Source: Desulfonatronovibrio hydrogenovorans DSM 9292 (GTDB taxonomy: Bacteria; Desulfobacterota; Desulfovibrionia; Desulfovibrionales; Desulfonatronovibrionaceae). Taken from it: DNA of 64,000 bases. The position numbers and the translations under genes are program-made. This document shows positions 2,324-55,783 of the stretch, in pieces. Every line of letters begins with the position of its first letter. Position 1 is the stretch's first letter. The stretch is from positions 558,001-622,000 of the forward strand of contig NZ_JMKT01000008.1 of NCBI RefSeq assembly GCF_000686525.1. Reading direction: 5' to 3'. The notes below the pieces were generated by a model. It was not told the origin of the DNA, ran no database searches, and saw nothing but the letters and a program-made list of their open reading frames with translations.

Positions 2324-3345
2324 ACTTTTTCCCGGTTTGCCCTGATTCTCTTCATCCACATATCAAGGGACGGAGCCAGCATGTTGCCCAGGAGTATTGA
2401 AAAGGCCACAGCTCCGGTAAAGATCCCCTTGTATCTCAAAAGAACGATCATGGCTCCGATGAACAGTCCATAAATCCACTGGGTCCGAGGACTCTTGGGT
2501 GCGGTGACCGGCTCAGTGACCATGAAGACCGCGGCAAAGAGAAGCCCGCCGGAAAGGATTACAAAAAGGGGATCAGGTACGGTATCGACTCCGGCCACGT
2601 GCTTCAAGAGCAGGGCAGTGAATAGGGCTCCCAGAATGGGTGAGAGCATGAGTCTTGGCTGGGCTGCTCTGGTGTACAAAAGCCAGGCACCTCCCAGGAG
2701 AATGGCCAGGGCGCTTACTTCGCCCATGGAACCAGCCCCCAGGACAATGGGATGGCCTTCTACCTGGATCAGACCGGAAATGTTTCCCAAAAAAAGAGCC
2801 CCAAGATCAGTGAATTGTCCATAGGTTTTGGCTGCGAACATGGGGGTGGCGGAAGTCAGGGCGTCCAGCCCGGCCCTGAGCAGGTAACCGGGCTGTTCCT
2901 GGGAGGAAATCATGCTCCATTGAGCAAACCCTCCGGGAAAGCCGGAAAATGAAGGCACGAATTTTGATGTCATATCCACTGGAAAGCAGATCCAGACAAA
3001 GGCCCGGCCCACAATGGCCGGGTTGAAAACGTTTTTTCCGAACCCGCCAAAGACCTCTTTGCCGAAAAGGATGCCTACAACAATGCCTACTGCAGCAATC
3101 CAGAAAGGTACAGTGGGTGGAAGGATCAGACAGTAGATCAGGGCTGTGACAAGACAGGCCTGAGTTACTTTGGCCTTTCTTCTGGAGGCAGTGATCCATT
3201 CGGTGATCAAGGCGAAGATTATGCATATCAGGACCAGAGCCAGGACCCTGAGACCGAAAAAGTATACAGCGCAGATAGTTGGAGGGATCAGGGCCACAAG
3301 AACCTTCTGCATGGGTTTTTGTTTCTGGAAACCTGGCTTGATCAT
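2320..3345 (-). CDS. nqrB: Na+-NQR subunit B (short form)
   Basis: The main Na+-channel membrane subunit. Seen: LPPTVPFWIAAVGIVVG, then GKEVFGGFGKNVFNPA and GRAF, which read as NqrB, and a flavin-attachment SAT motif (TSATPMF, Thr167). It has 341 residues, whereas Vibrio NqrB has about 415; the missing part is the N-terminal extension, so in length it is RnfD-like. No good ribosome site precedes the ATG (CTTTCGGATTAAC-ATG). A TTGACA at about 3453-3458 (minus strand) followed by TAAGAT could be a promoter, with an over-long 19-base spacer. It is the first gene of the visible nqr operon; no nqrA lies upstream. Confidence 0.88.
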   Translation of the reverse strand: MIKPGFQKQKPMQKVLVALIPPTICAVYFFGLRVLALVLICIIFALITEWITASRRKAKVTQACLVTALIYCLILPPTVPFWIAAVGIVVGILFGKEVFGGFGKNVFNPAIVGRAFVWICFPVDMTSKFVPSFSGFPGGFAQWSMISSQEQPGYLLRAGLDALTSATPMFAAKTYGQFTDLGALFLGNISGLIQVEGHPIVLGAGSMGEVSALAILLGGAWLLYTRAAQPRLMLSPILGALFTALLLKHVAGVDTVPDPLFVILSGGLLFAAVFMVTEPVTAPKSPRTQWIYGLFIGAMIVLLRYKGIFTGAVAFSILLGNMLAPSLDMWMKRIRANREKV

Positions 3346-55402: not shown

Positions 55403-55432
55403 TTGACAAGATATGATTTTTTGGTTTTTAAT
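55403..55432 (+). promoter_or_regulatory. Sigma-70-type promoter of the 47-aa gene
   Basis: A perfect -35 TTGACA (55403-55408), an 18-base spacer and a near-consensus -10 TTTAAT (55427-55432). It lies 39 bases upstream of the ATG of the small membrane-protein gene. Confidence 0.7.
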
Positions 55433-55471
55433 TAGTGAAATATTTAACAACACATCTTTCAGGAGGCCGGT

Positions 55472-55615
55472 ATGCTTGTGGAGCTTTTAAGGGATATGTT
55501 CAGCAGCACCACCCAGGGGTATTTCGGAGTTACAGGAATTTATGTCTATTTCGTAGCCATAGTGGCTGCGGCTATTTATCGGATCAAGGAAGGCATGAAA
55601 GAGGGGCATCATTAA
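55472..55615 (+). CDS. 47-aa single-span membrane protein, unknown
   Basis: 47 residues, starting at MLVELLRDM after AGGAGG with 5-base spacing. One membrane helix (~17-36, with YVYFVAIVAAAIY) and a basic/His tail (RIKEGMKEGHH). The coding case rests on a perfect Shine-Dalgarno, an own promoter (55403-55432) and a strong terminator (55703-55746). I do not recognise a family; candidates would be a respiratory or transporter accessory peptide. Confidence 0.72.
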   Translation: MLVELLRDMFSSTTQGYFGVTGIYVYFVAIVAAAIYRIKEGMKEGHH

Positions 55616-55702
55616 TTTCCCAACCCCGTTCATCCGGACCTGAAATGCTGTCAGACTAAGCCGCACTTCCTGGTTCCAGATGCGCCTCCTTTTTATTGTT
55701 TA

Positions 55703-55746
55703 AAAGCCTGATCACCGGCCAGGGCCGGTGATCAGGCTTTTTTTGG
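55703..55746. terminator. Very strong intrinsic terminator
   Basis: Perfect 18-bp arms aaagcctgatcaccggcc-ag-ggccggtgatcaggcttt (55703-55740), with Ts continuing to 55745. It ends the 47-aa transcription unit. On the minus strand it is followed by a shorter T-run (CTTTTAAAC), so it may also stop the cupin transcript coming from the right. Confidence 0.93.
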
Positions 55747-55783
55747 TTTTTTTTAACGGTCCTGATCAGGGGGAGGAGCAGAC

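Follow-up and report, generated by a model that had tools for sequence, protein, structure and literature searches.

CydX, the small subunit of cytochrome bd oxidase, is a very short, single-pass membrane protein of energy metabolism encoded within the cyd operon. The TorE/NapE "crutch" proteins are small membrane proteins that aid a respiratory system (PMC6134056); they have one helix, with conserved residues on one face. AtpI and AtpZ are likewise small membrane proteins co-regulated with the Fo subunits. We analysed a 64,000-nt stretch of the Desulfonatronovibrio hydrogenovorans DSM 9292 genome (the window) that carries a gene for a 47-aa protein resembling all three in these respects, its co-regulation with Fo being predicted from sequence motifs. 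Unlike CydX, it is encoded by a gene that stands alone, has no CydX match and occurs in genomes without CydA. It differs from TorE/NapE in having no Pfam match and no tor or nap neighbours, and in its lineage and conserved residues. The same genomes encode AtpI and AtpZ as separate proteins, and no sequence similarity between these two and the small protein was found. At the level of regulation, the closest described system is the Desulfovibrio Rex regulon (Ravcheev et al. 2012), which, as far as it is described in a citing paper (PMC4215793), has the same operator and the same co-regulated genes. We propose, with a probability of about one half, that the 47-aa protein is controlled by Rex and serves as an accessory to the membrane energy machinery.

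The transcription unit and its conservation

The unit is encoded on the forward strand. Upstream of it lie rpsA, sppA and mqnE-like radical SAM genes, and a cupin gene converges on it from the other side. A -35 element TTGACA (55403-55408) is followed, after an 18-nt spacer, by a -10 element TTTAAT (55427-55432), giving 11/12 to consensus; the automated promoter scan passed over TTTAAT because it demands A at position 2 of the -10 element. The Shine-Dalgarno sequence AGGAGG (55461-55466) lies 5 nt before the ATG at 55472, which opens the frame of the single-helix membrane protein MLVELLRDMFSSTTQGYFGVTGIYVYFVAIVAAAIYRIKEGMKEGHH (55472-55615). An intrinsic terminator of 18 perfect pairs with a 4-nt loop and a T-run occupies 55702-55741, and its symmetry may allow it to end the convergent cupin gene as well. 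The feature is read as a monocistronic gene for a single-pass inner-membrane protein. The initial annotation had listed both promoter elements, AGGAGG with its 5-base spacing, the 47-codon frame and the 18-bp terminator, and each was found in its place; the operator-like palindrome at 55433-55450 is a new addition.

A search with the 47-aa query found a homologous frame in 33 of 61 related genomes, and a profile search extended this to 174 of the class's 247 genomes, which represent 42 of 50 genera and carry a single copy each. Divergent members, for example in Desulfonatronum-like genomes, were recovered later. When 58 distinct homologs were aligned, L5, G19, V20, I23 and R37 were invariant and S12, G16, Y26 and H46 nearly so, and a strong ribosome-binding site preceded nearly all homologs. 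The pooled pN/pS over close pairs of homologs was about 0.095, and in the pair formed by the window and locus L031 both other frames contained stops. Because of this distribution, the low pN/pS and the stops in the other frames, the gene stands beyond chance, and comparative sequence data make it virtually certain that the frame is real and under selection. A non-coding RNA or a chance ORF would suit the short length, and a well-formed promoter and terminator would befit an sRNA. A sub-threshold Rfam BSnc120 match was also present (window 55689-55760, reverse strand; E 1.2e-4, 28.8 bits against a gathering score of 114), but it covers the terminator alone and is explained by the terminator hairpin. 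Set against the preservation of the frame across 42 genera, the pN/pS value and the conserved Shine-Dalgarno sequence, the probability of such a reading is close to nil. The frame-breaking changes that would mark a non-coding transcript were thus not borne out, and the frame was kept in relatives. The comparative evidence supports the earlier claim, a protein-coding gene of small size under a promoter and terminator of its own. That claim is understated, in that the gene represents an unnamed family present through most of an order and predicted to belong to the Rex regulon.

The initial annotation also knew no family for the protein, and this stands: no significant match came from Pfam, NCBIfam, PHROGs, PDB sequences or Foldseek, and neither PDB sequences nor Foldseek yielded a similar solved structure. 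A scan of viral contigs found no relative, and a viral origin was rejected. A scan of genome contigs gave 36 loci, all from Desulfovibrionales or loosely classified delta/Proteobacteria MAGs; it used a subset of the homologs, the first alignment being too diverse, and its two peptide patterns favour close relatives, so that restriction to the order is not proven by this result. A sensitive search of 40 non-carriers produced nothing convincing, the weak profile matches (E 0.007-0.6) falling mainly on an FtsW-like segment. The result is a conserved protein family that has no library name and that strong selection has maintained in most of a sulfate-reducing order. Reading raw sequence can therefore reveal conserved genes that family libraries do not cover.

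Rex-type sites at the promoter and in the genome

The palindrome TAGTGAAATATTTAACAA (55433-55450) directly follows the -10 element and lies across the expected transcription start. It matches the Rex operator TTGTGAAATATTTCACAA at 16 of 18 positions and TTGTGAAnnnnTTCACAA at 12 of its 14 defined positions. The Rex motif was fixed beforehand. At a threshold of at least 10/14, sites were found in 20 of 49 non-redundant upstream regions of homologs, compared with 3.3 ± 2.5 for 1500 composition-matched random motifs and with 35 of 549 (6.4%) upstreams of other genes at the same loci (Fisher 2e-10); these p-values are too small because of shared ancestry, species not being independent data points. 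The sites are spread over several families and differ in position, and Desulfonatronum-type loci have four further sites at about -30. More than half of the homolog upstreams are without a clear site, and not all clades have one. Counts at up to 3 mismatches in the 64-kb window alone are at chance (4 versus 3.8 expected), so it is the comparative evidence that carries the case for Rex; within the window, only the site at 55433 has 2 mismatches.

The same genome encodes a Rex protein (PF06971, 71 bits), and a Rex-type site closely precedes the rex gene itself. At up to 3 mismatches, the Rex pattern occurred genome-wide 170 times per strand and the control 74 times, making it about twice as frequent. 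Approximately 18 sites with up to 2 mismatches include those of rex, atpI-atpB-atpE, atpF, adk and the small gene, and another lies one gene upstream of dsrM. Several of the rest fall within genes and probably reflect chance. Rex is known to co-regulate Rnf and many sulfate-reduction genes in Desulfovibrio, and the sites of this genome agree with that published regulation (PMC4215793). A CRP-type reading of the palindrome also scores, but the predicted co-targets favour Rex. Taken together, motif and regulon context make it very probable that the small gene is under Rex control.

We suggest that Rex bound over the start site would repress the promoter and would be released when NADH/NAD+ rises, and that this regulation may be shared with atp, adk, dsrMKJOP and rex, as judged at the level of motifs. 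Since Rex leaves DNA when NADH is high, the small gene should rise under reducing conditions. The earlier expectation that it is expressed well is therefore to be amended: the promoter does look strong, but expression appears conditional, under putative repression by Rex. The candidate operator would tie an unnamed small protein family to the core energy regulon. A further Rex-type site with 2 mismatches, ATGTGAAGCCCTTCACAT (L154 site 1501, in the window's genome), was seen between divergent Hsp20-like genes and a small multihaem cytochrome (YVGSEACGRCH...), and L058 has a gene for a similar cytochrome close to the small gene.

Helix face, co-occurrence and gene neighbourhood

The protein has one hydrophobic segment, at residues ~16-38 (Kyte-Doolittle maximum 1.98), and AlphaFold2 with 33 homologs modelled one continuous helix over residues 2-44 (mean pLDDT 84.9). 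The conservation moment of residues 4-38 peaked exactly at 100 degrees, and none of 20000 permutations gave one as large. This period indicates that one helix face is constrained, as would be the case for a subunit that packs against a partner or against another copy of itself, and the protein is probably such a packed subunit or an oligomer. Conservation and the model together suggest that the face formed by L5, M9, S12, G16, G19/V20, I23, Y26, I30 and R37 would pack against a protein partner, and that the short charged, His-containing tail is probably cytoplasmic. Alternatively, the face could contact itself or a non-respiratory partner, the protein being a homo-oligomer or a free-standing membrane modulator such as a small protein of redox stress that targets a transporter or protease. 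The small-residue spacing S12-G16-G19 on one face would fit this, as would a stand-alone gene in variable neighbourhoods; however, Rex control points to energy metabolism, and R37 and the terminal His are conserved across the order more tightly than is expected of a generic stress peptide, which leaves this alternative unlikely. The favoured reading is a small accessory subunit or an assembly or stability factor of the core membrane energy machinery.

A panel of 80 genomes was profiled for Rex, CydA, RnfD/NqrB, AprA and DsrA. Rex was present in 75 of the 80, and many carriers were without RnfD/NqrB. CydA was missing from two carriers (G027 and G180) and present in nearly all non-carriers. AprA did not exceed the cut-off in seven carriers (G080, G094, G109, G170, G177, G232 and G242), and DsrA was missing from the carriers G170, G177, G191 and G059. 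Single absences in draft genomes can be assembly gaps, and it is the agreement of several that counts. The profiles of CydA, Rnf, AprA and DsrA did not follow the small gene in this panel. This speaks against a strict requirement for cytochrome bd, Rnf, Apr/Qmo or Dsr as a partner.

Rex controls cyd genes in some bacteria, and a CydX-like subunit of cytochrome bd oxidase would have similar size and topology. The two carriers without CydA, the many CydA-bearing non-carriers, a location away from cydAB and the missing CydX family match make this very improbable. An accessory subunit that anchors or stabilises another Rex-regulated membrane complex, chiefly DsrMKJOP (sulfite reduction) or QmoABC, would be in line with the Rex-type site near dsrM in the same genome and with the presence of dsrA and aprA in most carriers. 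Against it, G170 and G177 carry the small gene without either marker, G094, G109, G232, G242 and G080 fall below the aprA cut-off, the family members in these carriers are all clear, and many sulfate reducers do not have the small gene; we consider it quite unlikely. Both G170 and G177 belong to Desulfovibrionaceae, measure 2.5-2.6 Mb and are 96-100% complete; lacking aprA as well as dsrA, they apparently represent non-sulfidogenic members of that family.

In most genera, the small gene stands alone beside unrelated genes, the neighbourhood varies, and no operon partner was found among the neighbourhoods of the homologs. Neighbours included mqnE, rlmD, rplU-rpmA-obg, a sugar nucleotidyltransferase and a PilZ-like protein, named by sequence recognition except where Pfam was run. 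In the genera g20, g24, g39, g41 and g42, it forms part of a block consisting of rplU-rpmA-obg, the small gene, rlmD and atpZ-atpI-atpB-atpE-rex, and in g41 it is directly divergent from the atp operon. In L189 it is divergent from atpZ-atpI-atpB-atpE-rex; a single gene separates it from the Fo operon in L187 and L188, and it lies within 7 kb of that operon in L058, L062, L082, L085 and L090. A single ancestral arrangement, which also held rlmD and rplU-rpmA-obg, may account for the genera in which the small gene is near Fo. The same block is intact in g12 and g36, where the small gene is missing between rlmD and rplU and no ORF resembles it. Many complete genomes (Desulfovibrio-like g12, g34 and g36) keep ATP synthase and Rex without the small gene, which indicates that the gene is dispensable or replaceable. 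A clean absence at an otherwise intact rex-atp-rlmD-rplU-rpmA-obg block was observed in L195, L196, L198, L199 and L200.

For the accessory-protein reading, the F1Fo-ATP synthase is the most likely partner, a tentative choice that, as a step on its own, we hold at somewhat less than even odds. It is favoured by elimination, because it appears co-regulated and is the Rex target expected in all carriers, and because the Fo operon is nearby in five genera; the solitary position of the small gene in most genera and the retention of ATP synthase by non-carriers speak against an accessory subunit. No residue of AtpE or AtpB was found that separates carriers from non-carriers. In its specific form, an extra lineage-specific Fo subunit or assembly factor of Desulfovibrionales whose level would be set by NADH/NAD+ through Rex and which was cleanly lost in some genera, the proposal is rather doubtful. 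Should the protein prove to be a subunit of ATP synthase or of some other coupling complex, a component is missing from the structures and the energetic models of these bacteria.

A second, weak CydA-like match (profile positions 6-230 only) recurs across the order in frames of ~450 or 830-1300 aa, the example at G000:C1:12483-13127 being from one of many genomes, and is possibly a CydA-like quinol domain in a larger protein. Two proteins of the NQR2/RnfD/RnfE family are encoded ~6 kb apart, one at 2347-3327 on the reverse strand of the window and the other just outside it (G000:C8:553315-554235), which suggests that the window's genome has an Nqr-type complex and an Rnf-type complex in close proximity.
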